A program made the position numbers and the translations under genes. From NCBI GenBank assembly GCA_022984795.1, contig JALIHJ010000057.1:62001-126000 (forward strand): a stretch of DNA of 64,000 bases, written 5' to 3'. Under the pieces are notes generated by a model. The model made no database searches, was not told the DNA's origin, and was given only the letters and a program-made list of their open reading frames with translations. Numbering within the stretch: position 1 is the stretch's first letter; every line of letters begins with the position of its first letter. Positions 7,479 to 53,469 of the stretch are shown one piece after another. Origin of the DNA: Fabrea salina (Eukaryota > Ciliophora > Heterotrichea > Heterotrichida > Fabreidae).

Positions 7479-9395
7479 TTATCTAATTAGTTGGATACTA
7501 GCAACTGAGTAGTTAAAAAAGTGTTTGGGCATTTTGCGTTTGAGTTTCCGGCACCTTCCGTTGAGTTGGGGAAAAGCCTGCACGTACAGGTCAAGTATGT
7601 ACTCAAACTCTTTTTCTTCCACAAAGAAGTTTATGTGGTCTTCAATGTACTGTATGCAACTGCGGAGTATGTCAAGCATCTTTTGTGTGGGGTACTTAAT
7701 AGAAAGGTGCCCAGCCAGAGTCAAAGCAAACTTTTTCTGGGAAGAAGACCCTTGCTGGACTAAGTCCATAATGAAGTCCCAGGTGCAAATCAAACTGCCT
7801 ATTTTGTCGACTGCAACTGGCAAAAGGTCCAGTGGGTAGCCTTGGTAGTGCACTAGTTTTATCAAAATAGGGTTTTCAATCCAGTAACCGTGCAGGAAGT
7901 CACAAATAGCTCTGTCTACCTGAGAGTCAGTTCCTAAGTTGTCAAAGAGTTGCTGCACACAAGCTGACTGCTGAGTGTAAGTTACCATAGTAAGAATAAA
8001 GGAGTGTCTGGACTCTTGAGAAACTTGGTTTTTGTAAGTCAGTACGTAGTGTTCCCAAGCTGCCAAAAGCACTTCTAGTATTGAAACTGCAATGCTAAGT
8101 AGTAGTTACTCTACTGTAGAAGGAGAGTCCAGTTTAAGGACTTGGAACACTCTGAGTGGGTTAAGAGTTTCGTGAGGACTAGAAGCAACAGGACGCAGTG
8201 CGTTCAAAAACTCCAAAGAAACCTTTAAAGGGTGCCAGGCCAGCAAACACACAAAGTCCTGCACCTCACTTTCAGAAACACTTGGAAAGCAGTGCGAAAA
8301 CTTAAGTAGGAAAGACTCAGGCAAGTTAGGGCAACTTGAAGACTCCACTAAAGAACTAATGAAGAACCAAGGCATGTGTTGGGAAACCAACTGCACAAGC
8401 CACTCAAGCAGTTTGTCTTTGGCCTTCTTAAGGGCTGCTCTTACGTCTACTTCAAAGAAAAAACTGAACTCGTAAGGAGAACTAAGCACTCTCGAGTTGT
8501 AAAGCAAACTGTAAAAAAGCACACGGTACTGGAGAGCAGGGTGGTCTTTGGCTACTTTGAGCAAAGCAGGTTCAGGAATTTTGATCTGGAGTCTTTCTAT
8601 AGCTTGCTCAGCCAGTATTTGGAAGTGGAGGTCTTCTGAGTTAACAACTGAGTCAAGGATCATGCTGTAGTCACTAACGCACCCTCCTAAGTAGATATAA
8701 GAAGCCAAGCACTTGTCGTCCATCTCTTCCACAGAAAGGTCTTCATCTAGTATGCAGCCCAGCACCACACTGCAGCTTTTTTCTAAGTAGTCTTCCCTCA
8801 TTCTAACGTCGAATCCAAAACACAGATTGATTTCTTGAACAATATCACTCCAAAACCCTTGTCTGGCCCTCAGCACGTAAACCACTCGTTTGCCTTCTTT
8901 GTTAGCTGTTAGCTTAGACAGGATGGTTTGGGTGGACAGCATAGAAGAGTAGTCTTCGAAGAGCCCTATGAGTATTAGTAAGCTGTAAAATATCATCTGT
9001 GTGAGCTTTTCGTTTGCGTTTTGAGACAAAGTTTCTAAAGTTGAGTAGAGCTCTAAAAACTCCTCTGAAGTGAACCTAATGCAGTTCCTAGTGATCAAAG
9101 CTACTAACACTTTTAGGTGCAGAATGGCTTCACACTGGTGAGGGAAGTCTTTGAGTTCCTTTAAAACTTGACTGCGGACTATTTCGAGCACCTGGAACTC
9201 ACTAGGAATGCTTCCGTGCATCAGAATTGAAGAACTGATTTGGGCAGCTTGTTGTCTGAGGTAAGTCCAAATCCACTTAGAGTGGAGCTGGGAGTAAAGG
9301 AGTCTAGAAACATCCTGGGAGTTCAGCAACACATTTTGTGGGTCTGACTTTTTAGCTACTTGTTCTTGGTACTTAAGTCTTTGTTTAAAATCCAT
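7479..9395 (-). CDS. Uncharacterised alpha-helical protein, two exons
   Basis: Two open frames join through a 15-nt intron at 8095-8109 (exon 1 8110-9395, exon 2 7479-8094), giving about 633 residues. The joint is convincing because the frame is restored (...STVDIAVSILE...) and the donor supplies the stop that otherwise truncates the upstream frame. The protein is predicted to be almost all helix, with no TM segment and no catalytic motif I recognise. HEAT-like helical pairs are possible. Its ATG touches the stop codon of the upstream UROD gene (TAA then ATG with no base between), so it may share a transcript or have almost no leader. Function unknown. Confidence 0.7.
8095..8109 (-). other. 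15-nt intron
   Basis: The sequence on the minus strand is GTAACTACTACTTAG, phase 2. If retained, G plus the donor TAA gives an in-frame stop. A at position 10 is the presumed branch point. Confidence 0.9.
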
Positions 9396-10532
9396 TTAAC
9401 TACTTACTTGGTGAATAGTCTCAATAAAGACCCCTAAGTGACTAGGGTCCACGTCTGGGTAAATGCCGTGGCCTAGGTTGCAGATGTACCTTTTCTTGCC
9501 CAACTTAGAGTACATTTCTCGAGTGCGCTCAGAAATAGTTTCTGGAGAAGCATACAACAAAGCAGGGTCTAAGTTACCTTGTAGGGTTTTTTCATAAGTG
9601 TCTGCTAGTGCTCTGGCTTCTTCTAAGTTAACAGTCCAGTCAATCCCAACTACGTCGAATTCAGTTTTGCAAAGTTGTTCTAAAGCATAGCCAGCGCCCT
9701 TAGCAAATATAGTTAAAGGCACCTCAAAGTCAGGGAACTGCTTCATCCTTGACTTAAGTGTAGAAGCTATCTGTGTAACGTACTTAAGCAAGTAATCTTC
9801 AAAGTCTTTGCCTCCCAAGTAGCCTGCGTGGGACTCAAATATCTGGATGTACTGGGCTCCTGAACAGATCTGTCCCCAGACAAAGTCAGTAATTACCTCA
9901 GAAAGCATAGAAAGTAAACTATGCGAAGTCTCAGGGTTTTCGAAAAGCCACCTTCTAGCTTTGGTAAAAGTAGAGGAACCGCTTCCTTCGACCATGTAAG
10001 TGAACAAAGTAAAAGGTCCCCCTGCAAAACCTATAAGCGGCACCTTGCCTTTTAAGGAGTGTCTTGTTAAGTAAATAGAGTCGAAGTAGGGTTCGTAGTC
10101 ACTGGACAAGTCAGGCCTCTTCAAAGCAGCAAAGTCTTCAAGCTGACTAAGTGGACTAGGAAACACAGGGCCTTTTCCAGGAACCATTTCTACCTTCATG
10201 CCCATAGCTTGCGGCACCACCAGTATATCTGAGAAAATAATAGCTGCGTCAAGTGGAAACCTTCTAACAGGCTGGAGTGTGATTTCGCAGGCCAAACTAG
10301 GAGTAGTGCACATTTCAAAGAAGTCGTGGTTTTGACGGAGTTCTCTGAACTCAGGAAGGTAGCGGCCAGCTTGACGCATGACCCAGACTGGAACAGAGTC
10401 AACTTCATTGCCCTTTGCAGCGTCAACAAGTCGTTTATTGAGCAGTTCTGGAAAAGAGGTGTTGCCTGCTCCAGCTAAGTACCCTGAAGAAGGGGCTCTT
10501 TCTGGAACTTGAGAAAGCACTTGCAATTCCAT
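9396..10532 (-). CDS. UROD: Uroporphyrinogen decarboxylase
   Basis: This enzyme converts uroporphyrinogen III to coproporphyrinogen III by removing four acetate carboxyls, in heme synthesis. The 378 residues match the family's usual length of 350-370. Family signatures are present: the N-terminal substrate-site motif VWVMRQAGRYLPE near residue 49, FSDILVVPQAMG, GFAGGPFTLFTYMVEG and the C-terminal NLGHGIYPDVDP. The Arg of RQAGR and the Asp of FSDIL are the expected active-site residues. There is no obvious transit peptide, so a cytosolic enzyme is likely. It is divergent from the SCP-type phosphatase with 26 bp between the ATGs. Its stop abuts the next gene. Confidence 0.95.
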   Translation of the reverse strand: MELQVLSQVPERAPSSGYLAGAGNTSFPELLNKRLVDAAKGNEVDSVPVWVMRQAGRYLPEFRELRQNHDFFEMCTTPSLACEITLQPVRRFPLDAAIIFSDILVVPQAMGMKVEMVPGKGPVFPSPLSQLEDFAALKRPDLSSDYEPYFDSIYLTRHSLKGKVPLIGFAGGPFTLFTYMVEGSGSSTFTKARRWLFENPETSHSLLSMLSEVITDFVWGQICSGAQYIQIFESHAGYLGGKDFEDYLLKYVTQIASTLKSRMKQFPDFEVPLTIFAKGAGYALEQLCKTEFDVVGIDWTVNLEEARALADTYEKTLQGNLDPALLYASPETISERTREMYSKLGKKRYICNLGHGIYPDVDPSHLGVFIETIHQVSS

Positions 10533-10558
10533 TTATAATACTTACACAAGATATTCAA

Positions 10559-11797
10559 ATGAAAACAAACAAGATGCCTAAGTATTTTTCATCTACCGAA
10601 AAAGGAGGCAACGTGGTAGCTAAAGCTTCTAAACTCATCATAGATGTGCCACAGTTCGAAGACGATGAACCAACTGTAAACCTAAACAAAAACTCCCCAT
10701 CTCACTCCAGAGGCACTTTAAAGCACTCCAAAAATCTACTTGACTCCCGACCTTCACGCACTCCAAAATCACCTAAACTCCAAAACTATTCCCGATCTGA
10801 AGAAAACACTCCTAAATCTAAAGCTAACCTGCCCAAACCCCAAGAACCCTTAGTTTCAAAAACTGTTTCGCGTTCTCCATACATATTTAAGGCAAAGGCA
10901 AACATACTCAGTAACAAGTCAACTCCTAAGCTCAAAAAGTCCAGGAACTTAACCTCATCCCCAAACAGGAAGTCCCAAAAAGATGACAAAAAAACCAAAA
11001 GCAAACCCCCCACACCCAAAAACCCCAGAACTCCACTTACCTCAGTAGTCACAAAAGTAGCTTACAGAGAGCACCCCACTGAAGACAAAAGCGAAGCTAT
11101 ATACAGAGAGCACCTTTTCTCTACCTTCCAAGCAATGAAGATTGTAAAGGACTTGCCAGAAGTAGACCGAATTCAACTAAGGGAAAAAAGACTCAACGTG
11201 CCCAGGAGAAAAGGCTACGAAACCAAAAAAACACTAGTATTTGACCTAGACGAAACCCTGGTGCACTGTTGTGACGACATAGAAACTGAAAACCCTGACG
11301 TTATTTTGCCAATAACTTTTCCCACAGGAGAAGTAGTTGAAGCTGGAATTAACATCAGACCCAACGTTTACCAGTGCTTGAGGGAAGCGAGTAAGGACTT
11401 TGAAGTCTTTGTGTTCACAGCTTCCCACCAGTGCTACGCTGATGTAGTTCTAGACTACTTAGACCCACAACAAAAGTACATACATCAGCGCTTCTACAGA
11501 GAAAATTGCGTTTACGTAGATGGAGTGTACATAAAAGACCTGAGGATCTTTGGGAACCGCAAACTCTCAGAAATAGTTATAGTAGACAACGCAGCTTACT
11601 CGTTTGCTTACCAACTGGACAACGGAATCCCTATAATATCCTGGCATAACGACTACTTCGACAAGGAGTTACTCAACCTGCTTGACTACTTAAAAGCCAT
11701 CGAAGTAGCTGAGGACGTAAGAGACGTTAACCGGGACACATTCCACTTGCGGACTTTTTACGAAGACTACATCCAAGAGTTCCTGGCAGTTGGTTAA
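10559..11797 (+). CDS. SCP/CTDSPL2-like protein phosphatase (FCP1-homology domain)
   Basis: The N-terminal 200 residues are basic and low in complexity (Lys/Pro/Ser-rich), probably disordered. The FCP1-homology (NIF) catalytic domain follows, about residues 220-400. The nucleophile motif is DLDETLVH, the DXDXT signature of the HAD superfamily. VFTASHQCYADVVLD and VDNAAYSFAYQLDNGIPI are typical of the CTD small phosphatase and Dullard group. Members dephosphorylate Ser/Thr on RNA polymerase II CTD, SMADs or other targets. The substrate here is unknown. The order of a long basic tail before the domain best matches CTDSPL2. All catalytic residues look intact. Confidence 0.9.
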   Translation: MKTNKMPKYFSSTEKGGNVVAKASKLIIDVPQFEDDEPTVNLNKNSPSHSRGTLKHSKNLLDSRPSRTPKSPKLQNYSRSEENTPKSKANLPKPQEPLVSKTVSRSPYIFKAKANILSNKSTPKLKKSRNLTSSPNRKSQKDDKKTKSKPPTPKNPRTPLTSVVTKVAYREHPTEDKSEAIYREHLFSTFQAMKIVKDLPEVDRIQLREKRLNVPRRKGYETKKTLVFDLDETLVHCCDDIETENPDVILPITFPTGEVVEAGINIRPNVYQCLREASKDFEVFVFTASHQCYADVVLDYLDPQQKYIHQRFYRENCVYVDGVYIKDLRIFGNRKLSEIVIVDNAAYSFAYQLDNGIPIISWHNDYFDKELLNLLDYLKAIEVAEDVRDVNRDTFHLRTFYEDYIQEFLAVG

Positions 11798-11826
11798 TTA
11801 GTGTAACTTAGGTAAAGAAGACTTAC

Positions 11827-12654
11827 TTAAGAAATAGGAATGTTGAGTAGGTTATTTTGGCCGCCTGGCAGGTAAGTAACATTTGGAGTCTTGGCAAGTG
11901 TAGCTGCGATGTTCTTGGCTGCTTCGATTCTTCTGATCTCGAGTAAACCTGTTCCGTGAGTTTTGATGGCTTCTGAAATCATTTTGGCAGCTTCGGCTTC
12001 TCCTTCAGCTCTGATGATAGCAGCCTTTCTTTCTTGTTCTCTTTGCATGACTAAGAACTTAGCTCTTTCAGCGTCTTGCTGGGCCACTTGTTTCTGTTCA
12101 CAAGCTGCTGTGAATTCAGGGCCGAAGTTCAAGTGGGTGATGGCTACGTCTTCCAGGATGATGTGGAACTCGTTTGCTCTTTGAGTCAAACGTTCACGGA
12201 TTTCCCTGGAGACCTGTTCTCTCTGAGTTAGTAACTGCTCTGCGTTGTACTGGGCCACTATGGACTTTAAAACCTCGTTTCCAATACTTGGCAGCACACG
12301 CTCGTCGTAGTCACTTCCGAGATTCAAGTAAATAGAAGGCAAAAACTCTGTGTCAGGGCGGTAAAGGAACCTAAGGTCGATGTTGACCATCTGGAGGTCT
12401 TTGGTTCCAGTTTTGGAGTTGATAGTTTTAGGCGTGGTTCTGATGTCGAAGTACACAGGCCACTGGATAAGAGGAAGCACTCCATGGATTCCTTCTCCGT
12501 AGACGTCAGGCTTGATACCTTTGAACCTGTCGAAAACCAGTGCTCGTTCGCCTCCGTCTACGAAATACAGTGCTTTGTTGATTATGATGCCTCCTAGAGT
12601 GACACCTGCGCCTGCAAGACCTACAGTGTTAATCAATTTCTCTGCCCAAGACAT
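11827..12654 (-). CDS. PHB1: Prohibitin (PHB1-type)
   Basis: This is a mitochondrial inner-membrane scaffold that forms rings with PHB2 and controls m-AAA protease and cristae. I chose the start at MSWAEKLINT (12654), because an upstream in-frame ATG would overlap the V-ATPase D gene and adds a non-family tail. Visible features are an N-terminal hydrophobic anchor, the SPFH domain (ERALVFDRFKGIKPDVYGEG) and a coiled coil rich in Glu/Ala (AERAKFLVMQREQERKAAI). The end has TYLPGGQNN, very like PHB1. The 275 residues are the usual length. It is last in a minus-strand head-to-tail run, 16 nt after V-ATPase D. Confidence 0.95.
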   Translation of the reverse strand: MSWAEKLINTVGLAGAGVTLGGIIINKALYFVDGGERALVFDRFKGIKPDVYGEGIHGVLPLIQWPVYFDIRTTPKTINSKTGTKDLQMVNIDLRFLYRPDTEFLPSIYLNLGSDYDERVLPSIGNEVLKSIVAQYNAEQLLTQREQVSREIRERLTQRANEFHIILEDVAITHLNFGPEFTAACEQKQVAQQDAERAKFLVMQREQERKAAIIRAEGEAEAAKMISEAIKTHGTGLLEIRRIEAAKNIAATLAKTPNVTYLPGGQNNLLNIPIS

Positions 12655-12670
12655 ATTTATTACCACTGTC

Positions 12671-13405: not shown

Positions 13406-13409
13406 TTAC

Positions 13410-13979: not shown

Positions 13980-13993
13980 AGTTTATAGCTTAG

Positions 13994-15376: not shown

Positions 15377-15380
15377 TATT

Positions 15381-16491: not shown

Positions 16492-16758
16492 CTAGTTACT
16501 TGTTTTATTATAAGAAGCTTGGACGTACTTAAGTAACTCCGAGCAGTTTTTGTATTGGGTTTCAAGCTTAATGCAGTTGACTTTTGTGCCTTCTTGAATA
16601 GCTTCTTGCTTGCACCTCATGAGTTTGCGCTTAAGAGGACGACAACCTACTCTTAGCAGTTTTTGGTTGATGTTGTAGTTGTCCACTTCTGAAGCTTTCC
16701 ACCATTGGAGTTCTTCGTCTTCTAGCAACCTAAGTGGTACTTACTGAGTTTTGTCCAT
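16492..16758 (-). CDS. Small twin-CX9C protein, two exons
   Basis: The real start is MDKTQ in a 14-nt first exon (16745-16758). A 15-nt intron (16730-16744) joins it to exon 2 (16492-16729), for 83 residues in all. Two helices carry the pairs C-RPLKRKLMR-C and C-IKLETQYKN-C, a perfect twin CX9C (CHCH) pattern. Such proteins are normally oxidised by Mia40 in the mitochondrial intermembrane space. They act in respiratory-chain assembly or as complex I or IV subunits. Which family member this is cannot be told. The start codon faces that of the next gene across a 6-nt palindromic spacer. Confidence 0.75.
16730..16744 (-). other. 15-nt intron
   Basis: The sequence is GTAAGTACCACTTAG on the minus strand, phase 2, after only 14 coding bases. 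Retention gives an immediate in-frame TAA. Confidence 0.88.
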
Positions 16759-16764
16759 TTTAAA
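16759..16764. promoter_or_regulatory. Palindromic 6-nt divergent intergenic spacer
   Basis: The 12-mer CATTTTAAAATG (16756-16767) is a perfect palindrome whose two ends are the start codons of the divergent neighbours. Any core promoter must sit in these bases or inside the two coding regions. Confidence 0.4.
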
Positions 16765-17010
16765 ATGATTTTGACAGTGTTCAGCTCTTTGGCAGGAATA
16801 GGCATGGGCTACTGGTTTGTTAGAAACTACAACTTAGAACAAAGAGAGTACAGCAACGCTGAACTCAAAGCTATGTCTGACAAGTTCACTCAAGAACAAA
16901 AGGGCTCAGCACGACACAGGAAACTTATTTTAACTCAAGAAGAAATCCAAGAGTACGACCCCACTTTCAAGCCTCCAGTGATTCCTAGGTTCGGAGAACC
17001 CGACATCTAA
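16765..17010 (+). CDS. Small single-TM protein of unknown function
   Basis: The 81 residues have one hydrophobic segment at residues 2-19 (ILTVFSSLAGIGMGYWFV), followed by a charged soluble tail. The tail ends in PPVIPRFGEPDI. The layout is typical of small mitochondrial inner-membrane subunits, and its divergent partner is a twin-CX9C protein. Mitochondrial location is inference. No family is recognised. GPN1 begins 7 nt downstream on the same strand. Confidence 0.65.
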   Translation: MILTVFSSLAGIGMGYWFVRNYNLEQREYSNAELKAMSDKFTQEQKGSARHRKLILTQEEIQEYDPTFKPPVIPRFGEPDI

Positions 17011-18738: not shown

Positions 18739-18743
18739 AATAA

Positions 18744-19397
18744 ATGGCAGCACGTGACAAAGTAATCCAAACCGCAAAAGAACTAGTCAAAAAAGTAGGC
18801 TGGAGCGACCAAATGCTTGTGAGTGCAGCAACTCAAAATGGCTACTCACCAGTAAAGTTTACTTAGGCAATGGGAAGAGCTTTGTTTCCAAACGGGCCTA
18901 TTGAAATAGCTGAGTTACTGATGAAGGAGTGGGAAGACCAGCTCTCAGTGGACGTGAAGCTAGAAGAACTCGAAAACAAACAACTGGACGAGCAAGTTTT
19001 TTACGTGCTTCAAAAAAGACTTTCTTACGAAATTCCTTACTTGCCTAACTGGGAACAAGCTATGAAGTTGGGTTTGTTGCCTCCTAACGTTTCGACAGTA
19101 TACAACCGTTTGTTTTCGACCATGAACACAGTGTGGGACATGGTGGGTGACAAGTCAGAAGGAGTAATGGCTACTTAGAACATTTGGTATTACAAGCGAT
19201 TTATTGTGGGGCAAATCTTTGTAGCTACTGAAACCTTTATGGTGAGGGATGCCTCTAGCAACTTTGAAGGCACTTGGGACTTCCTTCACCAACAAATTGA
19301 AAACAAAACCTTTGAAGATGCTACAGAAACTCTTAGTTTGTACTCAACTTACGGCAACTTGGGTTATAAGTTCCTTGCAAACTACTTTAAAAGTTAA
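18744..19397 (+). CDS. COQ9: Ubiquinone biosynthesis protein COQ9, three exons
   Basis: COQ9 is a lipid-binding, TetR-fold helper that presents the ubiquinone precursor to COQ7 in the mitochondrial CoQ synthome. The exons are 18744-18851, 18867-19163 and 19179-19397, joined by two 15-nt introns and giving 207 residues. Family blocks are the N-terminal VGWSDQMLVSAATQNGYSPA, the ALFPNGPIEIAEL strip, and NIWYYKRFIVGQIFVATETF with DFLHQQIEN near the C-terminus. The hydrophobic C-terminal helix is membrane-active in human COQ9. There is no clear presequence: the first residues (MAARDKVIQTAKELVKK) already belong to the domain. Confidence 0.9.
18852..18866 (+). other. 15-nt intron
   Basis: GTAAAGTTTACTTAG, phase 0. 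The terminal TAG is the in-frame stop on retention. Confidence 0.92.
19164..19178 (+). other. 15-nt intron
   Basis: GTAATGGCTACTTAG, phase 0, ending in an in-frame TAG. Removing it joins the two halves of the COQ9 domain. Confidence 0.92.
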
Positions 19398-22813: not shown

Positions 22814-23521
22814 ATGGGGAATTCTTGCTTTAAATCTAAAAAACAAAGAGGAGTCTCTGTGGATGACACTGGAAGAGATGATGCCATACCACAGGGCATC
22901 AGTGAGATCTGGAAAGACTTGTCTAACAGAACCGAAGAGGAGCTAAGAGGCCTGGAACTCCAGAAAAGCTTTGAAATACTAGGAATTGAACTAGAAACTG
23001 CTGACGAGTTTATGGCAGCTTTTGTGTTGGAAATGAACGAGTTAGCTGTGCTTAAAAAAGAAGAACTCCAAGCTTATATGCACAAGTAAGCAGTATTCAG
23101 AAAACACATTTCAGGCCTTCAAGAGTTAAGGAACCAACTGCAGTTAGAATTCAGAAGCATCCGGAACGAGTAACTTTTAATCAGTGCTGTTAAACTGAGA
23201 GCTTTGTTCAAGTACGTTTTCACCAAGAGCCAGGAGAACACCAAGTTCATAAGTATGGATTTAGCTTCCCAAATCTACCAAGTGCTAGTTCTAGAAAACC
23301 CGGCTTTTAAAAACTCTTTGTTAGCAAAGAAACTTCTGCACTTCTTAGAAACCAACAAAAAACACTCAGGACTTAACTTTGACGAATGGGAGAACTTGCC
23401 CTTGTTTTTGAAGGAGTTCTCAGAAGGCCTCCAGAACTACAACCAAACAGACAGCTGCTACCCTTCTGTGTTTGATAACTTTGTAAAAATTGTGAACTCA
23501 AACATTAATTATAATAATTAG
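22814..23521 (+). CDS. DCUN1D: DCN1-like cullin-neddylation factor with myristoylation signal, three exons
   Basis: DCN1-like proteins stimulate NEDD8 transfer from UBE2M to cullins. The exons are 22814-23085, 23101-23169 and 23185-23521, with two 15-nt introns, giving 225 residues. The N-terminus MGNSCFKSKKQR is a strong N-myristoylation plus palmitoylation plus basic signal, as in human DCUN1D3. The potentiating-neddylation (PONY) domain follows: KSFEILGIELETADEFM, LRALFKYVFTKSQ, LDFDEW-like NFDEWENLPLFLKEF and the closing YPSVFDNFVKIV with the family's Asp and Phe. The cullin gene begins 1 nt after its TAG. Confidence 0.88.
23086..23100 (+). other. 15-nt intron
   Basis: GTAAGCAGTATTCAG, phase 2. 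Retention gives an in-frame TAA at the donor. Confidence 0.9.
23170..23184 (+). other. 15-nt intron
   Basis: GTAACTTTTAATCAG, phase 2. Retention gives an in-frame TAA at the donor. The middle exon is only 69 nt. Confidence 0.9.
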
Positions 23522-29056: not shown

Positions 29057-29500
29057 ATGTCCTCCCCCGAAAAAAGAAGAATGAACCCTGTGGAAGAACT
29101 GTCTTTTCTAGACGAAGCTATTAAAAAAGAAAGATTACACTCTAAAATCCATGAACACTTCACTCTAAATCCCCGGTCTTGTAACTCCTAAACAGTAATG
29201 CTACTTTCGGACAAGCCTAACAGAACTGGACTACTCAATGTCGACGCTGAACACGAAGCCACTCTAGGCAATGAACTCAAGGACAAACTCATGCGACTCT
29301 CTGCTGTGCCCAAAACCAAAACTTCTTTCCCAGTTACTTCAAATCAAGAGTTTGGTTGGGACTCAGACTTGGTAAGCTTTACTTAGCCCAAACCCAAACC
29401 TACTTGGAACTTTTCCAAGCCTTCTTGTGAAGAAACTAAGTACGCTTCAAGTTACTACACTATGACTGGAAAAAGTCCCTTTTCTAGTGGCCGCTCTTAA
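29057..29500 (+). CDS. CFAP144: CFAP144 (FAM183)-like axonemal protein, three exons
   Basis: This gene is only visible after splicing. The exons are 29057-29180, 29196-29371 and 29387-29500, with two 15-nt introns, giving 137 residues. The start carries LHSKIHEHFTLNPRS. The middle has FPVTSNQEFGWDSDL, and the end has WNFSKPSCEETKYAS. These correspond to the family blocks LNP, (F)PxTxxQExGW and ExTKY. FAP144 is a microtubule inner protein of doublets. The gene is divergent from the coiled-coil gene (28 bp), and two other CFAP genes lie within 7 kb. Confidence 0.75.
29181..29195 (+). other. 15-nt intron
   Basis: GTAACTCCTAAACAG, phase 1. The in-frame stop on retention is the TAA that contains the branch A. 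Confidence 0.88.
29372..29386 (+). other. 15-nt intron
   Basis: GTAAGCTTTACTTAG, phase 0, ending in an in-frame TAG. Confidence 0.88.
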
Positions 29501-37606: not shown

Positions 37607-39034
37607 ATGAGGTTGGCATTTATTGTAGCAAACCTAGTTGTGCTTGGTTTGAGCTCAAAGGCAGGAGTTGAAGTGGGTTTTACGAGTGATGCCTTAGAGT
37701 CACTTAAAAAAGACGCTCTGCCCAGTGTACTTCATAAAATCGGAAACATCCAAATTCCAGAACAAGAGGGCACAATAGGCAAGGACTGGTACGAAATCAA
37801 AGTAAAGGCCTATGGAATAGTGGTTTCAGGCATTGATGCTAACGTTGATGCTTCTGAGATCCAGTTCAAGCCTGACCACGAGTTTGCAGTTAAAATCAAC
37901 GGCATCACTGCTAAAGCTAATTTCCAGTACCATTATGATTTACCTGTGGGAAGCGGAGGAGGCTCAGGAGATATTGATATCTCTGACACTAACGCTGACG
38001 CTGTTGTGGAAGTCACTGAAAGCAAAGGCAAACCTGTTGTGGGCATTGAAAGCTCTAATGTTCACTTAGGTCATCTTGATATCCACTTTCATGGGGATAT
38101 TCTTGGTGATATTGCTAACTGGATTATTGATTTATTTAAGAATAAACTCACAGGAACTATTGAAGATGAGATGAACAAGGCTATAAAGAACTCGGGACAG
38201 CAAGCCATAGACAAGGCCTTAAGTACCTTGCCTATTTACATAAGTTTCAGTGGCTATCCACTTGCCGTTGACTACTCCCTTCCTTCAGACCCTTTAGTTA
38301 GGTCAGACTACGTCCAAGCATCTGCAGCAGGCATCTTCCTAGACACTGACCAACCCAACTACAGTCCTCCTGTGAGTCCTCCTGTAGACCTGCCTGGGTT
38401 CGATGCAAACGGAAAGCAGATTCAGGTGATGCTTACAGACTACACTCTTAACACTGGACTTTACGCCTGCTACAAGGTAGGAATCATTAACTACAACGTC
38501 ACCAGCAGTGTGATTCCTTCAAGCTCTCCTATCAAACTTGACACTACTTCTCTAAATGACATAATTCCTGGTATGATAAGCAAGTATGGCTCTAGCAAGC
38601 CCTGCAATCTGCTATGTTATGCTTCAGGACAACCAAGCATCAAATCTACTTCAGGAGAGATCCAAGGAGACGTTGAAATGGCTTGTGAAGTGCAAGTTGA
38701 AGGAGTCTACAAAGTAGCTACTTTTGGCAACTCAATTGACTTCAGTGCTTCTGCTGTTTTAAGCAAGTGGGTAGTCAACGCTAAACTCAACAAGGTAGAA
38801 GTGAATGCCATTAAAATTACTGAGAATAACATTGGGAGCAACATTGACGTTGACTCTCTAAAGACTTCTTTGAACTTTATTCTTAAGATAGCTGTGCCTA
38901 CTATTGACCAAAAGGTGTTTAGCAAAGGAATTCCACTTCCCAAGATCGATCAAGTTAACCTTGACAACGGAGAAGTCACCATTCAAGATGGTTACTTATT
39001 CATTGAAGCCACTCCTATTTGGAATTTCAATTAA
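37607..39034 (+). CDS. Secreted BPI/LBP-family lipid-binding protein, copy 1
   Basis: The 475 residues start with a signal peptide (RLAFIVANLVVLGLSS). The two-barrel BPI/LBP/PLUNC fold follows. The first barrel has KAGVEVGFTSDALESLKKDA and the IQIPEQ strand. The Pro-rich hinge is SPPVSPPVDLPGFD. The second barrel contains GLYACYKVGIINYNV. The family binds phospholipid or LPS. In animals BPI permeabilises Gram-negative bacteria, while others only carry lipid. In a filter-feeding ciliate, defence or digestion of bacteria is plausible inference. It is a tandem paralog of the next gene, sharing most of the coding sequence. Confidence 0.85.
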   Translation: MRLAFIVANLVVLGLSSKAGVEVGFTSDALESLKKDALPSVLHKIGNIQIPEQEGTIGKDWYEIKVKAYGIVVSGIDANVDASEIQFKPDHEFAVKINGITAKANFQYHYDLPVGSGGGSGDIDISDTNADAVVEVTESKGKPVVGIESSNVHLGHLDIHFHGDILGDIANWIIDLFKNKLTGTIEDEMNKAIKNSGQQAIDKALSTLPIYISFSGYPLAVDYSLPSDPLVRSDYVQASAAGIFLDTDQPNYSPPVSPPVDLPGFDANGKQIQVMLTDYTLNTGLYACYKVGIINYNVTSSVIPSSSPIKLDTTSLNDIIPGMISKYGSSKPCNLLCYASGQPSIKSTSGEIQGDVEMACEVQVEGVYKVATFGNSIDFSASAVLSKWVVNAKLNKVEVNAIKITENNIGSNIDVDSLKTSLNFILKIAVPTIDQKVFSKGIPLPKIDQVNLDNGEVTIQDGYLFIEATPIWNFN

Positions 39035-39046
39035 CTTAATTCACAT

Positions 39047-39058
39047 ATGGTGAAATAA
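39047..39058 (+). promoter_or_regulatory. Conserved mini-uORF motif before BPI-like gene 2
   Basis: This is the second copy of ATGGTGAAATAATTATG (39047-39063), with the same Met-Val-Lys-stop and the same 2-nt distance to the main ATG. The whole space between the two genes is 26 bp. Confidence 0.45.
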
Positions 39059-39060
39059 TT

Positions 39061-40491
39061 ATGAAGGCATTGCTCGTTGTAGCAGGCTTGATTGTAGTAG
39101 CTTGGGGCTCAAAGGCAGGAGTTGAAGTGGGTTTTACAAGTGATGCCTTAGAGTCACTTAAAAAAGACGCTTTGCCCACTGTACTTCATAAAATCGGAAA
39201 CATCCAAATTCCAGAACAACAAGCTACTGTAGGAAAGGACTATTATAAAACCAAGATAAATGTTTACGACATAGTAGTTTCAGGCATTGATGCTGACATT
39301 GAGTCCTCTGATATTCAGTTCAAGCCTGACCACGAGTTTGCAGTTAAAATCAACGGCATCACTGCTAAAGCTAATTTCCAGTACCACTACGACGTGGATT
39401 CTATAGAAAGCGGAGGAGGCTCAGGAGATATTGATATCTCTGACACTAACGCTGACGCTGTTGTGGAAGTCACTGAAAGCAAAGGAAAACCTGTTGTGGG
39501 CATTGAAAGCTCTAATGTGACTTTGGGGAAACTCAACATTAAATTTGGCAATGACCCTTTGGGTTACATTGCTAACTTCCTTATAAGTTTATTTAAGAAT
39601 AAACTCACAGGAACTCTTGAGCAGGAAATAAACAAGGCTATAAAGAACTCGGGACAGCAAGCTATAGACAAAGCCTTAAGTACCCTGCCTATTTACATCA
39701 GGTTTGGTCAGATCCCACTTGCCGTTGACTACTCCCTTCCTTCAGACCCTCTAGTTAGGTCAGACTACGTCCAAGCATCTGCAGCAGGCATCTTCCTAGA
39801 CACTGACCACCCCAACTACAGTCCTCCTGTGAGTCCTCCTGTAGACCTGCCTGGGTTCGATGCGAACGGAAAGCAGATTCAGGTGATGCTTACAGACTAC
39901 ACCCTTAACACTGGACTTTACGCCTGCTACAAGGTAGGAATCATTAACTACAACGTCACCAGCAGTGTGATTCCTTCTAAATACCCCGTTCACTTAGACA
40001 CAACTTCGCTTAGTATACCTATTCCTGGCTTGGAAAAGAAATACGGAGCTGGAAAACCCTGCAACCTCTGGTGCTACGCTTCAGAGCAACCAAGCATCAA
40101 ATCTACTTCAGGAGAGATCCAAGGAAACATAGAAGTAAACTGTGAAGTGCAAGTTGAAGGAGTCTACAAAGTAGCTACTTTTGGCAACTCAATTGACTTC
40201 AGTGCTTCTGCTGTTTTGAAAGACTGGGTTGTGAGTGCTAGCTTGAAAGAAGCAGAAATACAATCTATAAAGGTAGTTGACAACCCGATTGAAAGTAACA
40301 TAGATGCAAAGGCCCTCAAGAACTTTTTTGACTTGATCCTTAAAGTAGTAGTTCCTATTCTTGACGTCATCGTGCTTGACCAAGGCATTCCACTGCCTAA
40401 AATTAAGCAAGTCGACCTCAGCAATTCAGAAGTTACCATTCAAAAAGGCTACTTGTTCATAGGAGCCACTCCTGTTTGGCACTTCGATTAA
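39061..40491 (+). CDS. Secreted BPI/LBP-family lipid-binding protein, copy 2
   Basis: The 476 residues have a signal peptide (KALLVVAGLIVVAWGS) and the same two-barrel layout as copy 1. Long stretches are nearly identical in DNA, such as the VDYSLPSDPLVRSDYVQASA region. Patches differ strongly, such as LGKLNIKFGNDPLGYIANF against LGHLDIHFHGDILGDIANW, and so do the last 90 residues. The mosaic pattern suggests gene conversion over a background of divergence, or selection on lipid-contact surfaces. It may have a different ligand from copy 1. It starts 26 bp after copy 1. Confidence 0.85.
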   Translation: MKALLVVAGLIVVAWGSKAGVEVGFTSDALESLKKDALPTVLHKIGNIQIPEQQATVGKDYYKTKINVYDIVVSGIDADIESSDIQFKPDHEFAVKINGITAKANFQYHYDVDSIESGGGSGDIDISDTNADAVVEVTESKGKPVVGIESSNVTLGKLNIKFGNDPLGYIANFLISLFKNKLTGTLEQEINKAIKNSGQQAIDKALSTLPIYIRFGQIPLAVDYSLPSDPLVRSDYVQASAAGIFLDTDHPNYSPPVSPPVDLPGFDANGKQIQVMLTDYTLNTGLYACYKVGIINYNVTSSVIPSKYPVHLDTTSLSIPIPGLEKKYGAGKPCNLWCYASEQPSIKSTSGEIQGNIEVNCEVQVEGVYKVATFGNSIDFSASAVLKDWVVSASLKEAEIQSIKVVDNPIESNIDAKALKNFFDLILKVVVPILDVIVLDQGIPLPKIKQVDLSNSEVTIQKGYLFIGATPVWHFD

Positions 40492-45772: not shown

Positions 45773-45794
45773 TTTAGTAATATTGCAAGATTAA

Positions 45795-47256: not shown

Positions 47257-48450
47257 ATGTTAAGAAAAGCAATAAGAAGATTTTCAAGTTTTAACTGGGA
47301 AGATCCCCTTAACATGACTAGTCTTTTAACTGAAGAAGAAGTTATGATAGCCAACTCTGCAAGGGACTTCGCCCAAGAAGTCCTCCAGCCCAGAGTCAGA
47401 GAAGCCTACAACGAAGAAAGGGTTGATACCCAAATCATGAAGGAACTAGGCGAAAGGGGCTTTTTGGGCTGCACCTACACTGAGTTTGGTCTTCCAGGGA
47501 TTTCCACTACAGCTTACGGTCTCGTAAATAGGGAAATCGAAGGAGTTGACAGTGGGTACCGCTCTGCTATGAGTGTACAAAATGGCCTAGTAATATACCC
47601 CATCATAACTTACGGGCCAGAAAAACTTAAGGAACGACTTATTCCGAAGCTTGCCAGTGGTGAACTTATTGGGTGTTTCGGACTGACTGAGCCCAACCAT
47701 GGCTCAAACCCAAGTGGCATGGAAACCAAAGCTGTGAAGCAAGGAAGCAAGTACATCGTTTCTGGTTCTAAAACTTGGATAACTCACTCGCCCATAGCTG
47801 ACGTGTTTGTGATCTGGGCGCGCTCTAGCGAAGACGACGACATTCACGGGTTCGTGCTAGAAAAAGGGATGCCTGGACTAACTGCTCCTAAGATTGAAGG
47901 AAAGCTTTCTTTAAGAGCCAGTGTGACAGGCATGATTATGATGGACCAAGTAGAAGTGCCTGAAGAAAACATGCTGAACGTCAAAGGTCTGAAAGCGCCT
48001 ATGTCCTGTTTGAACAACGCTAGGTTAGGAATAGCTTGGGGTACTTTAGGGGCAGCTCAGACGTGCTTCAAAATTGCCAGAGACTACACGCTGGAGCGCA
48101 AGCAGTTTGGAAAGCCCTTAGCTCAGTTCCAGTTGATCCAAAAGAAGTTTGCAGACATGGCTACGGACATTTCTTTAGGCCTTCAAGGAGTACTTCAAGT
48201 CTCCAGACTTAAAGAACAAGGAAAAATAGTGCCTGAACAGATTTCGCTTATAAAAAGGAACAACTGCCAAAAAGCTTTGCAGATCGCAAGGGAGTGCAGA
48301 GACATACTTGGAGGAAACGGAATAGTTGACGAGTATCACGTGATGAGGCACAGCACCAACCTTGAAACTGTGAACACTTACGAAGGCACCTCTGATATCC
48401 ACGCTTTGATTCTAGGGAAAGCTATTACAGGCTTGCAAGGTTTTAAGTAA
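47257..48450 (+). CDS. GCDH: Glutaryl-CoA dehydrogenase
   Basis: This is a mitochondrial FAD enzyme that oxidatively decarboxylates glutaryl-CoA to crotonyl-CoA in lysine and tryptophan breakdown. The 397 residues start with a basic presequence ([18 protein letters not shown]). FWDPL-like NWEDPL and [16 protein letters not shown] are typical of GCDH among acyl-CoA dehydrogenases. [16 protein letters not shown] is the FAD-binding signature. The catalytic Glu is in [18 protein letters not shown]. The 157-bp upstream gap to FZR is the widest divergent spacer in the window. Confidence 0.96.
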
Positions 48451-48458
48451 AGTGTTAG

Positions 48459-48743: not shown

Positions 48744-48752
48744 TTTATAAGA

Positions 48753-48992
48753 ATGGGGAGTTGCTGCATGAAAAGCAAGAAAAAACCTATGAACAAACCC
48801 TACGGAGGACTAATGGGGCAGTCAAATGCTTCTGCTGACGAGAACTACAAGCACCTTGCTCCAGCTTACACGAACGAAGACCGAAGGAAACTTATGTTGG
48901 AAGCCGCAGAAAAAAGAGAAACGCAAAACCAAATGAAAGGACTTTCTAAGCAGAGCTACCAAGAGTACCAGTACAAGAAGAACAGAACTTAG
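48753..48992 (+). CDS. SVIP: SVIP-like small p97/VCP-interacting protein
   Basis: The 79 residues begin MGSCCMKSKKK, a myristoylation site followed by palmitoylatable cysteines and a basic patch. The VCP-interacting motif R-X5-AA-X2-R is exact at residues 45-55 (RKLMLEAAEKR). A charged helical tail follows. Human SVIP has this same plan: an acylated N-terminus, then a VIM, and 77 residues. SVIP binds p97 and inhibits ERAD or drives lysosomal p97 functions. The start at 48753 is the Met that creates the acylation site. A longer in-frame start would add eight residues and destroy it. Confidence 0.75.
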   Translation: MGSCCMKSKKKPMNKPYGGLMGQSNASADENYKHLAPAYTNEDRRKLMLEAAEKRETQNQMKGLSKQSYQEYQYKKNRT

Positions 48993-49040
48993 TATTTAAT
49001 TGACTTTAATCGTTGTTTTTATTTTATGGTCATATAAAAA

Positions 49041-50384
49041 ATGCTGGTGTTGTTTGAGACAGCTGCGGGTTTTGGGTTGTTCAAAGTTTTGAAGGAAAAA
49101 AAGATCAAGAAAGTTGAGAACTTAGCCGATGAGTTCGAAACTCTCGACAAAGCTAACAAAATAGTTAAGCTCAAAGCCTTTGAAAAATTCACAGACGCCC
49201 AAGAAGCCCTTAAGTCCACTGCTTCGGTGGCAGAAGGCAAAATGAGCAAGTCGCTCCGGAGGTTCCTCCGCAAAAACATAGTCAAAAAAGGCATAGAAGA
49301 CAGTCTTTTAGTACTGGACAAAAAACTGCGAACTGCTATTGAAGAGAAACTAGGAATTAAGTGCCTTTACTCTTCCAAGTACATGGGACTCATCCGAGGA
49401 ATCCGTTCACAAATAGAAGGACTTGTCGCAGGACTCACTGAACAAGAACAGAAAGCCATGCAGATTGGTCTTGCGCACTCTATCTGCAGGCACACTCTTA
49501 AGTTTAGCGTAGACAAGTTAGACACAATGGTGGTGCAGGCTGTGAACTTGCTGGACGACATCGACAAAGAGCTCAACAACTACGCCATGAGGTTGAGAGA
49601 GTGGTACTCCTGGCACTTCCCAGAACTCGCCAAAATCATCACTGACAACGTTGTTTACGCCAAGTGCGTGCTCAAAATGGGAGGCCGCAAAGAAGCTGAG
49701 AAGGCAGAACTCTCAGAAATCATTCCTGAAGACATGGAAGCTGAAGTCAGAGAAGCTGCACAGCTTTCAATGGGCACAGAAATTACTTCTCAGGACTTAG
49801 ACCACATCAAGAACCTGTGTGGCCAGGTGATTACCCTATCAGAGTACAGAGTCTCCCTTGCAGAGTACCTCAAAAGCAGAATGCAAGCTATCGCTCCCAA
49901 CTTGACTGTGCTAGTGGGGGAACTGGTGGGGGCTCGTCTGATTGCCCACGCAGGGAGCTTAGTGAACCTTGCCAAACACCCAGCTTCAACTATCCAGATC
50001 TTAGGTGCAGAAAAAGCATTGTTCAGGGCCATCAAAACCAAGCATGACACTCCTAAGTACGGGTTGTTGTACCACGCTTCTTTAGTTGGCCAAGCAGCCC
50101 CCAAAGTAAAAGGAAAGATATCTAGGACACTAGCAGCAAAGTGTGCTTTATGCATACGTGTGGACGCTTTAGGAGAACAAGAAGAGGCTACAGTGGGCCT
50201 TTCACACTTGCAAGCAGTTGAGTCCAGAATTCGCTACTTAGAAGGACACATCACTCCGAACGTTCTTTCAGGCTCTAAACATCCTAAGTACGTGAAAAGT
50301 ACTAACCCTGTTTATAACACAGCTGGAGATGCTACTTCAAACATCGAAGAGGAGTCCAAGCCCACTAAGAAGCCTAAGCACTAA
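49041..50384 (+). CDS. NOP58: NOP58, box C/D snoRNP core protein
   Basis: This protein is a scaffold of box C/D snoRNPs that guide 2'-O-methylation and pre-rRNA processing. The 447 residues start with the NOP5 N-terminal domain (MLVLFETAAGFGLFKVL). The NOSIC coiled coil follows. The Nop domain is GARLIAHAGSLVNLAKHPASTIQILGAEKALFRA, which is close to invariant across the family. The final Lys-rich tail is short (KPTKKPKH) compared with animal NOP58. The start ML(V)LFET distinguishes it from NOP56. Confidence 0.96.
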   Translation: MLVLFETAAGFGLFKVLKEKKIKKVENLADEFETLDKANKIVKLKAFEKFTDAQEALKSTASVAEGKMSKSLRRFLRKNIVKKGIEDSLLVLDKKLRTAIEEKLGIKCLYSSKYMGLIRGIRSQIEGLVAGLTEQEQKAMQIGLAHSICRHTLKFSVDKLDTMVVQAVNLLDDIDKELNNYAMRLREWYSWHFPELAKIITDNVVYAKCVLKMGGRKEAEKAELSEIIPEDMEAEVREAAQLSMGTEITSQDLDHIKNLCGQVITLSEYRVSLAEYLKSRMQAIAPNLTVLVGELVGARLIAHAGSLVNLAKHPASTIQILGAEKALFRAIKTKHDTPKYGLLYHASLVGQAAPKVKGKISRTLAAKCALCIRVDALGEQEEATVGLSHLQAVESRIRYLEGHITPNVLSGSKHPKYVKSTNPVYNTAGDATSNIEEESKPTKKPKH

Positions 50385-50430
50385 TATTTTCTAATAACGC
50401 TTTGAACTGTTTCAGAGTCCAACTAATAAA

Positions 50431-51849
50431 ATGATGGGATCTTCCAAAGTACCAGAGTTTATCCCTAGGTTCAGTTCTGCTCCTCCTGACGAAGGCCAGC
50501 CTCAGTTCCGCGATCCTGGCAAGCTAAATGTGGATGCAATTGACTTCATTCCTGTTTCTTTGCCAACTCTCAACCCTAATGTCAGTGAATTTGAGCCGGG
50601 AAAATTAAGTGCCACTGCTAAAGAGTTCACCGCAAACCCACCCGAACAAATTCCTGAAGAGAGTGACGACGAAGGAAGGGTTTACATTAAAGACCAAGAA
50701 TTATCCAACCAAAGCACTTTCGACGTAAGTGACTTTGACATAGAGCCAGAGTACATTTACTCAGCTGAAAGTATTTTAAAAGCTTTCAAAAAGTTCCAAT
50801 CCGACTCGGAGTTCTCAAAGATCTCTCCAGACTTAGAGGCTTACCAAACCCGACAAATAACTCCAGTCCCTTTTAGAGGCAACAAAGGAAAGAACTACAA
50901 AAGGAAAAACACTTACCAACATAAAAAAGAAGAAGTCAAAGAAACTCCAGAGTGGCGACTTCAAAAAGAAAACGAAGAAAAAAAGATCATTGACAAAGCC
51001 AAAAGGTACGTCGAAAAACTCAAACTCACTCCACAAGAACACGAAAAAATCAAAAGGAAGGTTAAAATCACCCTTAACAAACTCTCTCCAAGTAACGTTG
51101 AAAGGCTCCAAGAACAACTCTGCAACTTAGGCAAAGAAAGTTACGACAACTTGCACTGCTTAGTTTCAGGCATCTTTGAAAAAGCTTGGGCCGAGCCCAA
51201 GTACACCAAAATGTACGCACAGATTTGCAAGTACCTTAAGTCAGAGTTCACAGACTTCCAGTTCCCCCAAGAAGAACACACTGCCAAGCGCACTAACCAC
51301 TTTAGGTTTGAACTACTTTGCATGTGCGAAGAAGCCTTTTCAAAGAACCCCAACGATGAAAACTTCGAAGGACTCAATGAAGAAGAAATTGAGTACAAAC
51401 TTATGATGCAGCGCAAAAAAACTAACGGGAACGTTCAGTTCATAGGGGAGCTCTTTAACGTCCGGTTGATCGGTCCTAAAATAGTGCTGAAGTGCGTGTA
51501 CGAACTGCTTAACTTGCCTGAAGACAATGAAGAGTTCGACATCGAAACAATTCCAATTGACGAAAACAAACTAGAGGGTGCTTGTATTCTTCTGTCAACA
51601 GGGGCAAGTTCTTTTGACCACATAAAACTCAAAAAAAACACTGACAAGATCTTTGAGTTGCTAGAAGGTATAATTAAGCACCGCACTTTGCAAAACAAGT
51701 ACAGGTTCAAAGTTATGAACCTTATAGACGAGCGTAGAGAAGGCTGGCCTAAGTCGAAAAAAGAGGAACCTAAAAAGATCGAAGAAGTCAGGGAAGAGTT
51801 CCATAAGGAAAAAGACGAAGTGCTCAAAAGACATGAGTATAAAAAGTAA
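50431..51849 (+). CDS. EIF4G: eIF4G-like translation initiation factor with PAM2-like motifs
   Basis: The 472 residues carry one MIF4G domain (about 205-440), starting KITLNKLSPSNVERLQEQL and followed by VSGIFEKAWAEPKYTKMYAQI. This is the eIF4A-binding HEAT domain of eIF4G. N-terminal to it lie three PAM2-like PABP-binding motifs (LNVDAIDFIP at 32-41, LNPNVSEFEP at 47-56, LSATAKEF at 59-66). A candidate eIF4E site follows (YSAESIL at 110-116, near YX4L-phi). The gene is short compared with animal eIF4G and lacks MA3 and W2 domains. Scaffold assignment is firm. The motif roles are inference. Confidence 0.88.
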   Translation: MMGSSKVPEFIPRFSSAPPDEGQPQFRDPGKLNVDAIDFIPVSLPTLNPNVSEFEPGKLSATAKEFTANPPEQIPEESDDEGRVYIKDQELSNQSTFDVSDFDIEPEYIYSAESILKAFKKFQSDSEFSKISPDLEAYQTRQITPVPFRGNKGKNYKRKNTYQHKKEEVKETPEWRLQKENEEKKIIDKAKRYVEKLKLTPQEHEKIKRKVKITLNKLSPSNVERLQEQLCNLGKESYDNLHCLVSGIFEKAWAEPKYTKMYAQICKYLKSEFTDFQFPQEEHTAKRTNHFRFELLCMCEEAFSKNPNDENFEGLNEEEIEYKLMMQRKKTNGNVQFIGELFNVRLIGPKIVLKCVYELLNLPEDNEEFDIETIPIDENKLEGACILLSTGASSFDHIKLKKNTDKIFELLEGIIKHRTLQNKYRFKVMNLIDERREGWPKSKKEEPKKIEEVREEFHKEKDEVLKRHEYKK

Positions 51850-51933
51850 TTATTGTATATACTCCTCAGCCAGGGGCAGTGACTTTAGCCCTAAGCGTCA
51901 CTTGGAGTAATTACACTTTAAATTCACTTATCG

Positions 51934-52494
51934 TCATCCTTTTTTCTGAGAGTTCAAGTCAACTCCTATGTCTTTATAGGTTACTTGTTTGGATGAGCCA
52001 AGGTCTCTGGCGTGCGAAGCTTGGACAGTTCTGTTTGAGTTTTCTTTTCGGTCCAAAGCAGCTTGTTCAAGTAGCTTCTTGCGTTCTAGTTCCCTTGCTC
52101 GGGCTTTTTCACGCATTTCTTTTTGCTTCTTTTCGTGGAGTTTTTCTTCTTCGGTTTTAAGTTCGTCTTTAAGTTCTGACAAAAAGGCTTCTGTAATGGC
52201 AAAAGCCGTTTCTAAGTTGTCTTGAGACACTTCAGCCATGACAAGGTTGTCCGAGTCCTGCTCAGAATAACCTATTCTGTGTAGAATAGGAACTATTCCG
52301 TTAACTCCGAGGAGTTTAGCAGCAATTACTTTATTGGACTTTTTGATGCCTTTGTACTTGGGCTCTTGAGGGTGGTCTATTATGTTGCGGAGGAGTTTAG
52401 TAAGGATTCCTAAGGCTTCGTTGGTTTTTTGGGGTCCGTTTTGTTCTTTAAGGTTTTGGAAACTATTGTAGAGAGCAGTGTCTAGTTCTTCCAT
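51934..52494 (-). CDS. PUB-domain protein (p97-binding adaptor)
   Basis: The start is MEELDTALYNSF (52494). An earlier frame overlaps the kinase gene. The 186 residues carry an N-terminal PUB/PUG domain (about residues 3-100) with NEALGILTKLLRNIIDHPQEPKYKGIKKSNK and LLGVNGIVPILHRIGY. These features are seen in PNGase, UBXD1 and HOIP, which use the domain to hold the C-terminal tail of p97. A charged helix (EEEKLHEKKQKEMREKAR) and a short tail follow. There is no transglutaminase or UBX domain, so it is not PNGase. Confidence 0.8.
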   Translation of the reverse strand: MEELDTALYNSFQNLKEQNGPQKTNEALGILTKLLRNIIDHPQEPKYKGIKKSNKVIAAKLLGVNGIVPILHRIGYSEQDSDNLVMAEVSQDNLETAFAITEAFLSELKDELKTEEEKLHEKKQKEMREKARARELERKKLLEQAALDRKENSNRTVQASHARDLGSSKQVTYKDIGVDLNSQKKG

Positions 52495-52506
52495 TATTAT
52501 TATAAT

Positions 52507-53469
52507 ATGAAAAGAGCGATTATAGAAACAAGCCAAGTCACTGACTACAAAGACAAAAAAGGACAGAAGCACATTAACGAGTTTACAGTGCTGCAGAAAC
52601 TAGGCGAAGGCTCTTTTGGAACAGTTAAGTTATGCAGGAGTCCAGAAGGGCTCTTTGCAATGAAAGTGTTTAAAGTTGACTTGTTGAGACGCAGAAGGGA
52701 ATTTCATAACTCCCCAGAAGTAACCCTTAGTTAGGGCAAAATGGTTGTGACCTCTGCTTTGGATGATGTGTTCACTGAAATTGAAATACTGAAAGAACTC
52801 CAACACCCTAATGTTTTAGGACTTTATCAGATCATTAACCATGAAGATTCTGGCAAAATTTACTTGAGTGAGTTATAAGTAGTTCAGGATTACTGCCAAA
52901 AAGGCAGTTTTATGGAGTGGAACGTAGCCGAAAAAAGGTTTTACTCTGAGTGGCATACAGAGGAGTTTTCTGAAAGCCTTTTAAAGAACTGCTTCAAGCA
53001 AATGGCTCTGGGACTAAAGTACTTGCACGAAAAAAAGGTTATCCATAGAGACCTTAAACCTCAGAACATACTGGTTAGTTCTGACGGGACTATCAAGATA
53101 GCAGACTTCGGACAGGCTTTCAAGTTTGAAGAGACTGACCAAGTTGCTAAGACCAAAGGTACTTACCACTTTCTAGCTCCAGAGTGCCTCAGCAACGAAG
53201 GCTCTTACTCAGGAAGGGGGGCTGACGTGTGGGCTTTAGGAGTGGTTTTGTACTCTGCACTATACACCTTTTTGCCTTTCTCGGGGGAAAACATTACAGA
53301 CTTAATGGACGCAATAGAACATTCTATGTAAAGGTTATTTAGGTTAGTGATTCCGAACATAAGACCCGTTTCTAGTGAACTTAGGAATTTGCTTTTGAGG
53401 ATCCTAGACAAAAACCCTTCAACAAGAATTACACTTGAAGAAATCCTTGTACATCCCTGGCTTAAGTAA
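52507..53469 (+). CDS. CaMKK/SAK1-like protein kinase, four exons
   Basis: The exons are 52507-52719, 52735-52867, 52883-53327 and 53343-53469, joined by three 15-nt introns into 305 residues. The kinase domain fills the protein: [15 protein letters not shown], the catalytic loop [16 protein letters not shown] and GTYHFLAPE, ending [26 protein letters not shown] after a basic loop ([14 protein letters not shown]) is typical of CaMKK and yeast SAK1 kinases, which phosphorylate AMPK/SNF1. There is no obvious C-terminal calmodulin-binding helix. An AMPK/MARK-like kinase lies 15 kb upstream. Direct pairing is a guess. Confidence 0.85.
52720..52734 (+). other. 15-nt intron
   Basis: GTAACCCTTAGTTAG, phase 0, ending in an in-frame TAG. 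Confidence 0.88.
52868..52882 (+). other. 15-nt intron with GTGAG donor
   Basis: GTGAGTTATAAGTAG, phase 1. It is the only one of eleven without GTAA. The in-frame stop is the TAA around the branch A. Removing it restores KIYLIQDYC in kinase subdomain V. Confidence 0.85.
53328..53342 (+). other. 15-nt intron
   Basis: GTAAAGGTTATTTAG, phase 2. Retention gives an in-frame TAA at the donor. Confidence 0.88.

Follow-up and report, generated by a model that had tools for sequence, protein, structure and literature searches.

Eleven putative 15-nt introns in six genes

We analysed a stretch of 64,000 nucleotides (nt) from contig JALIHJ010000057.1 (hereafter the window, positions 1-64000) and examined eleven putative introns, all of them 15 nt long, that interrupt 6 of its 52 open reading frames (ORFs; two of these ORFs may belong to a single gene). 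Two of the introns lie on the minus strand, a point absent from the initial annotation of this DNA. The first, GTAACTACTACTTAG at 8095-8109, lies in an INTS2-like gene (Integrator subunit 2; 7479-9395, minus strand; PF14750, 89.8 bits); it is in phase 2 and its in-frame stop, TAA, derives from the donor. The second, GTAAGTACCACTTAG at 16730-16744, is also in phase 2 with a donor-derived TAA, and has C instead of T at position 9. Its host is a small minus-strand gene (16492-16758) coding for 83 amino acids with twin CX9C cysteine spacing. The spliced frame of this gene was read by eye and shows two CX9C pairs, and the excision connects the frame to an upstream ATG; no significant family and no solved relative were found for the product.

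The other nine are on the plus strand. A COQ9-like gene (18744-19397; PF08511; solved COQ9) contains GTAAAGTTTACTTAG at 18852-18866 and GTAATGGCTACTTAG at 19164-19178, both in phase 0 with a TAG stop from the acceptor. A DCN1-like, cullin-binding gene (22814-23521; PF03556; 5v89) contains GTAAGCAGTATTCAG at 23086-23100 and GTAACTTTTAATCAG at 23170-23184, both in phase 2 with a donor-derived TAA. In the CFAP144 (FAM183)-like gene (29057-29500, ending in TAA; PF14886; 8sf7 OJ3, 8snb CFAP144), GTAACTCCTAAACAG at 29181-29195 is in phase 1 and its stop TAA comes from the branch region, and GTAAGCTTTACTTAG at 29372-29386 is in phase 0 with an acceptor-derived TAG. Three introns fall in a protein kinase gene (52507-53469; PF00069, 211.5 bits; nearest in PDB to CAMKK1/2, 6ccf): GTAACCCTTAGTTAG at 52720-52734 (phase 0, TAG from the acceptor), GTGAGTTATAAGTAG at 52868-52882 (phase 1, TAA from the branch region, the sole donor that is not GTAA) and GTAAAGGTTATTTAG at 53328-53342 (phase 2, TAA from the donor).

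Sequence pattern and reading frame

The initial annotation had listed eleven 15-mers of the form GT...AG with A at position 10, and all of them were found where it had placed them. Ten start with GTAA, as it had said, and the remaining one, at 52868, starts with GTGA. Regarding the single positions, G1, T2, A4, A10, A14 and G15 were present in 11/11 introns, A3 and T9 in ten and T12 in nine, and position 13 was T in eight and C in three; the AT content of the introns was 65.5%. The description of A10 as invariant and of the length as always exactly 15 holds for the 11/11 introns here; as Stentor coeruleus also has introns of 16 nt, mostly with A at position 11, exceptions are to be expected elsewhere in this genome (n=11).

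Five introns are in phase 2, four in phase 0 and two in phase 1. Every one contains a single in-frame stop in its own phase (11/11), and the excision drops this stop and leaves the flanks open in the same frame. Since 15 is a multiple of three, the frame continues past each intron, and the raw reading frame resumes beyond the stop at all 11 interruptions; for the same reason, retention of an intron would leave the frame intact but would end translation at its stop. On both strands of the window, 198 of 6742 stop codons fall within any GT-N7-A-N3-AG 15-mer, and these 2.9% (the 11 included) serve as a yardstick and not as a sampling test, as the sites were chosen by the reader of the sequence and homology was not searched systematically at every break. 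Ten of the eleven interrupting stops sit in five Pfam-matched genes (INTS2, COQ9, DCN1/Cullin_binding, FAM183 and the kinase), all of them within such a 15-mer.

Intron boundaries compared with homologues

According to the initial annotation, each excision restores a protein that is recognisable by family or by frame. This was borne out, with a product alignable to a homologue at 9/11 sites and with the frame alone at 8095 and 16730. For the nine sites, which belong to four genes (COQ9, DCN1, CFAP144 and the kinase), we scored against one solved homologue per gene all excisions of 3-60 nt whose start lies between 45 nt upstream and 15 nt downstream of the called one and which keep one open frame. 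Under the GT-AG rule the called 15-mer was the top excision at 9/9 sites, out of 2 to 6 candidates per site: 4 at 18852, 5 at 19164, 3 at 23086 (aligned to DCN1-like protein 4), 6 at 23170, 2 at 29181, 3 at 29372, 2 at 52720, and 5 at both 52868 and 53328. The alignment was gap-free within five residues of the junction at 7/9 sites, among them 18852 and 19164 (against solved COQ9), 29181, and 52868 and 53328 (against CAMKK1); the site at 29372 is in a variable stretch and that at 52720 in a variable insert.

When the GT-AG rule was dropped, a length of 15 nt reached the top score at 6/9 sites. The called boundaries held the top score at three of them, namely 23170 (614 excisions), 29181 (624 excisions) and 53328 (0/617 better). 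At 19164 and 52868 a shifted 15-nt excision beat the called one by 3 and 1 points respectively, and at 29372 the top score was shared by a shifted 15-mer and excisions of 9 and 6 nt, 108 of 626 excisions outscoring the called one. The Pfam scores of the spliced proteins, compared with those of the same proteins with all introns kept, were 66.0 vs 58.0 for COQ9, 74.5 vs 65.7 for FAM183 and 211.5 vs 205.4 for the kinase.

Some results weigh against splicing at these sites. The best unconstrained length differed from 15 nt at 3/9 sites, being 18 nt at 18852, 30 nt at 23086 and 9 nt at 52720. The form with the intron kept (X at the stop) aligned better at 29372 (by 7) and at 52720 (by 2), both of them variable stretches. 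The INTS2 Pfam score is 89.8 with and without the intron at 8095, so the support there comes from the frame, and this is also the case at 16730, which lacks a homologue. There were no Rfam matches at the gathering threshold in the window, so that no small nuclear RNA gene reached it. Finally, the search for relatives gave no related contig for the clathrin, Nop-domain and CDC20-like proteins among viral contigs, nor for clathrin among genome contigs, these collections being non-eukaryotic and single-protein queries reaching close relatives only.

The stops might instead be read through, or be ambiguous sense/stop codons of the Condylostoma type, five extra residues being made at each site. The preserved frame with a single stop at 11/11 interruptions would suit this, as would the two sites where the kept form aligns slightly better, and context-dependent stops are described for one ciliate in the sections of the literature covered. 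Nevertheless, we consider it very unlikely, as the five kept residues lower the alignment score at 7/9 sites and every such stop falls in the 15-mer whose background is 2.9% per stop. Furthermore, no in-frame stops occur in the 46 intron-free ORFs, although ORFs are stop-free by definition, and hidden ORF extensions have little room, the median distance between neighbouring ORFs being 20 nt. That the elements are germline segments which were not removed, similar to internal eliminated sequences, or assembly artefacts, is hardly credible. The gene content is ciliate-like and ciliates are described as removing short DNA segments, but TA at both borders and direct repeats containing TA were each found in 0/11 cases, the boundary repeat is at most 2 nt, and GT...AG with a constant 15 nt is present in 11/11.

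Proposed splicing and the role of A10

The eleven elements are very probably 15-nt introns like those of heterotrichs, which the U2-type spliceosome would remove and which have the branch adenosine at position 10. Following the published Stentor model (PMC9505925, in the sections covered) and general knowledge of the spliceosome, the signals would be the donor GUAA at positions 1-4, the branch adenosine 10 after U9, and the acceptor (U/C)AG at positions 13-15. The GUAA donor would be read by U1 and then by U6, and A10 would be presented by U2. By joining A10 to G1, the spliceosome would form a lariat with a loop of 10 nt and a tail of 5 nt.

A10 could also be conserved for another reason, for example because it provides UAA/UAG in frame or belongs to the acceptor, the branch being elsewhere (A4) or not used. 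Actually, U9-A10-R11 makes the in-frame stop in both phase 1 introns, and A4 is likewise present in 11/11. However, the introns in phases 0 and 2 keep A10 in 9/9 cases and T9 in 8/9 without making an in-frame stop there. In Stentor coeruleus, moreover, position 10 carries the branch A in 8005 of 8806 introns (90.90%) and position 11 carries it in 442 of the 633 introns of 16 nt, so that the distance to the acceptor is preserved (PMC9505925). We therefore regard a branch elsewhere, or an unused one, with A10 conserved for another reason, as unlikely. Judged from the sequence, the best interpretation, and a supported one, is that of short introns which the spliceosome removes, probably with the branch point at A10.

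In-frame stops in every phase and cryptic introns

With introns locked to 15 nt, and hence always a multiple of three, the splice signals may double as a translational fail-safe, selection eliminating stop-free introns as well as stop-free coding motifs that resemble introns. This idea is tentative, and we hold it to be possible and somewhat less than an even chance; it rests on 11 cases and is graded as suggestive and weakly supported. The in-frame stop would come from GUAA in phase 2, from U9-A10-purine in phase 1 and from U13-AG in phase 0. In agreement with these sources, a purine is at position 11 in 2/2 phase 1 introns and in 2/9 in the other phases, and U is at position 13 in 4/4 phase 0 introns and in 4/7 in the other phases. 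The probability of a stop in all 11 introns was 0.032 with the observed phases permuted and 0.013 with random phases.

The introns were detected through their frame-breaking stop, and hence we looked for stop-free ones inside ORFs. In the 56,778 nt of the 46 intron-free ORFs the motif GTAA-N5-A-N3-AG occurred once, 3.46 occurrences being expected by synonymous shuffling (P 0.113); as it is not in excess, there is no sign of hidden stop-free introns. GTAA-N9-AG occurred 7 times on the sense strand vs 12.23 expected (P 0.070) and 26 times antisense vs 22.27 in the same ORFs. With an earlier gene set, which left out the genes at 16765-17010 and 59929-60540, the sense count was 7 vs 12.51 expected (P 0.043), and the other cryptic-intron patterns showed no significant sense depletion in that set. 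The broader GT-N7-A-N3-AG was not depleted in sense (56 vs 51.23 expected) and was in slight excess in antisense (84 vs 71.93, P 0.047). As several patterns were tried, the avoidance of GTAA-N9-AG on the sense strand is only a hint. Among the matches listed in the literature search, whose coverage did not extend to the key genome papers, titles and abstract openings did not state the fail-safe idea for heterotrichs.

Comparison with published ultra-short introns

The initial annotation had compared the introns with those of Stentor and other heterotrichs, and this comparison is correct and already in print. As far as the sections covered of the cited papers go, S. coeruleus has 8173 of 8806 introns (92.81%) of 15 nt and 633 (7.19%) of 16 nt, and 18.14% of its genes contain introns (PMC9505925). 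The likeness comprises the length of 15 nt, mostly GT-AG borders, A10, a conserved GUA start, few intron-bearing genes and the standard code. S. coeruleus differs in being more AT-rich, with 75.63% AU in its introns vs 65.5% here, and in also having 16-nt introns (PMC9505925). The introns of Blepharisma stoltei are predominantly 15 and 16 base pairs (bp) long and lie in a compact macronuclear genome, but UGA codes for tryptophan in this species (PMC9942806), whereas TGA ends 2 of the 47 genes checked here. A paper on Loxodes gives 15 bp for around 95% of heterotrich introns (PMC11441545). A conserved A near the 3'-end of the intron has been reported for S. coeruleus, two Euplotes species and Oxytricha, the other ciliates examined being without it (PMC10946202).

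Regarding introns whose length is a multiple of three, the other ciliates studied have them under-represented in most length ranges and often with in-frame stops (PMC5014332). Paramecium and other ciliates thus resemble the present case in these frequent stops, but Paramecium introns are around 25 bp, those of other ciliates are longer, and multiples of three are mostly scarce, unlike the 11/11 here (PMC5014332). The introns of Mikrocytos mackini are likewise ultra-short and nearly constant, but they are 16-17 nt long and belong to a parasite of an unrelated lineage (PMC10245619).

We consider it extremely unlikely that the window comes from such a lineage with ultra-short introns, whether a mikrocytid (introns of 16-17 nt) or a chlorarachniophyte nucleomorph (18-21 nt, in the literature sections covered), as all 11 introns here are 15 nt and the window codes for CFAP77, CFAP144-like and DUF4200 proteins. 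To our knowledge, these proteins would not be expected in a nucleomorph or in a non-ciliated parasite.

By its sequence, the finding is a further instance of a published feature, and heterotrich introns appear to be the best match among the published kinds. The few genomes with the shortest introns on record would thereby gain a heterotrich-like member, with higher GC and gene-dense. Since the 15 nt, A4, U9 and A10 persist in a less AT-rich genome, this suggests that the spliceosome, rather than base composition, sets the intron length.

Organism and gene content

The host is likely a heterotrich, which fits the intron length, the ciliary genes and the standard stops. The Pfam families in the window include CFAP77, FAM183, DUF4200 (which we take to have a ciliary role), clathrin, cullin, CDC20-like, Nop-domain and INTS2. 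A giant-virus origin was dropped because of these genes, which are eukaryotic and include ciliary families. A search of the window for transfer RNA genes with bacterial settings gave none. Over 47 genes the ends are TAA in 37, TAG in 8 and TGA in 2, and the standard code is reported for both Fabrea salina and S. coeruleus (PMC10553269). Apart from this likeness in the code, a compact genome in Fabrea salina would fit the median gap of 20 nt found here. The paper on its genome is said to describe tiny introns and shrunken intergenic regions.

GC content at codon positions 1, 2 and 3 is 48.8, 33.9 and 46.1% respectively. For third positions, S. coeruleus has 22.66% and S. roeselii 34.22% (PMC10384029). 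The value here is unlike those of the two Stentor species, and therefore the organism need not be Stentor.

Scans for other introns

No coding introns of other lengths were established in the window, the prediction from codon statistics being too weak to prove their absence. This motif-blind gene prediction, which allowed any intron length, was not relied on. Owing to the weak codon signal and the tiny gaps, it fused adjacent genes across intergenic gaps and yielded doubtful introns that varied widely in length (10-60 nt in the first run). It recovered 5/11 of the 15-nt introns in the first run and, in later runs, 4/11 at an intron cost of 10 and 1/11 at costs of 12 and 14; without the GT-AG rule (three runs) it found 0/11 exactly. 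A motif-blind scan of the 524 stops flanked by 20 open codons placed 7/11 introns in its top 20. Several of the other 13 fell at the end of a gene or on the strand opposite to one, and the remaining 4/11 introns were outside the 45 of 524 matches listed.

Two further candidates were not counted: GTAAAAGTAAGGTAG at 2354, which precedes an ORF in a region where each of the three plus-strand frames contains stops, and a 16-nt candidate at 48447, which straddles a gene end.

Genome compactness and neighbouring genes

ORFs and introns together fill 96% of the window, with the median gap between neighbouring ORFs given above. Six of the ten convergent pairs overlap or end at most 2 nt apart. In two divergent pairs the start codons are only 5 nt apart (18739-18743, between a TIP41-like gene and the COQ9-like gene) and 6 nt apart (16759-16764, between the twin-CX9C gene and a small ORF); therefore, their promoters would have to sit in coding sequence.

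Two ORFs at 2371-7447, one of them TIG/PA14 and the other TRP-like, share 47 nt but are read in different frames. Their paralogue, which lies at 2-1588, matches the end of the TIG/PA14 ORF and most of the TRP-like ORF, and because it spans both, they seem to be one gene that is frame-shifted near 6107-6153, owing to a sequence error, decay or a programmed shift. The break is a frame shift which a 15-nt intron does not explain. Within the stretch coding for the TIG domains, a unit of 324 nt is repeated in around 2.8 tandem copies (4057-4973). The largest gap of the window, of 782 nt, separates the paralogue from this pair (1589-2370); none of its three plus-strand frames is free of stops, and it contains a short TTAGGGTTAGGG stretch.

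Two genes of the LBP/BPI/CETP family form a tandem pair at 37607-40491, with 26 nt between them. A divergent pair of Ras-family GTPase genes lies at 59259-60540, with the nearest start codons at 59891 (minus strand) and 59929 (plus strand); in the ORF set the start of the minus-strand gene was taken as 59900, the nearest ATG being the one at 59891.

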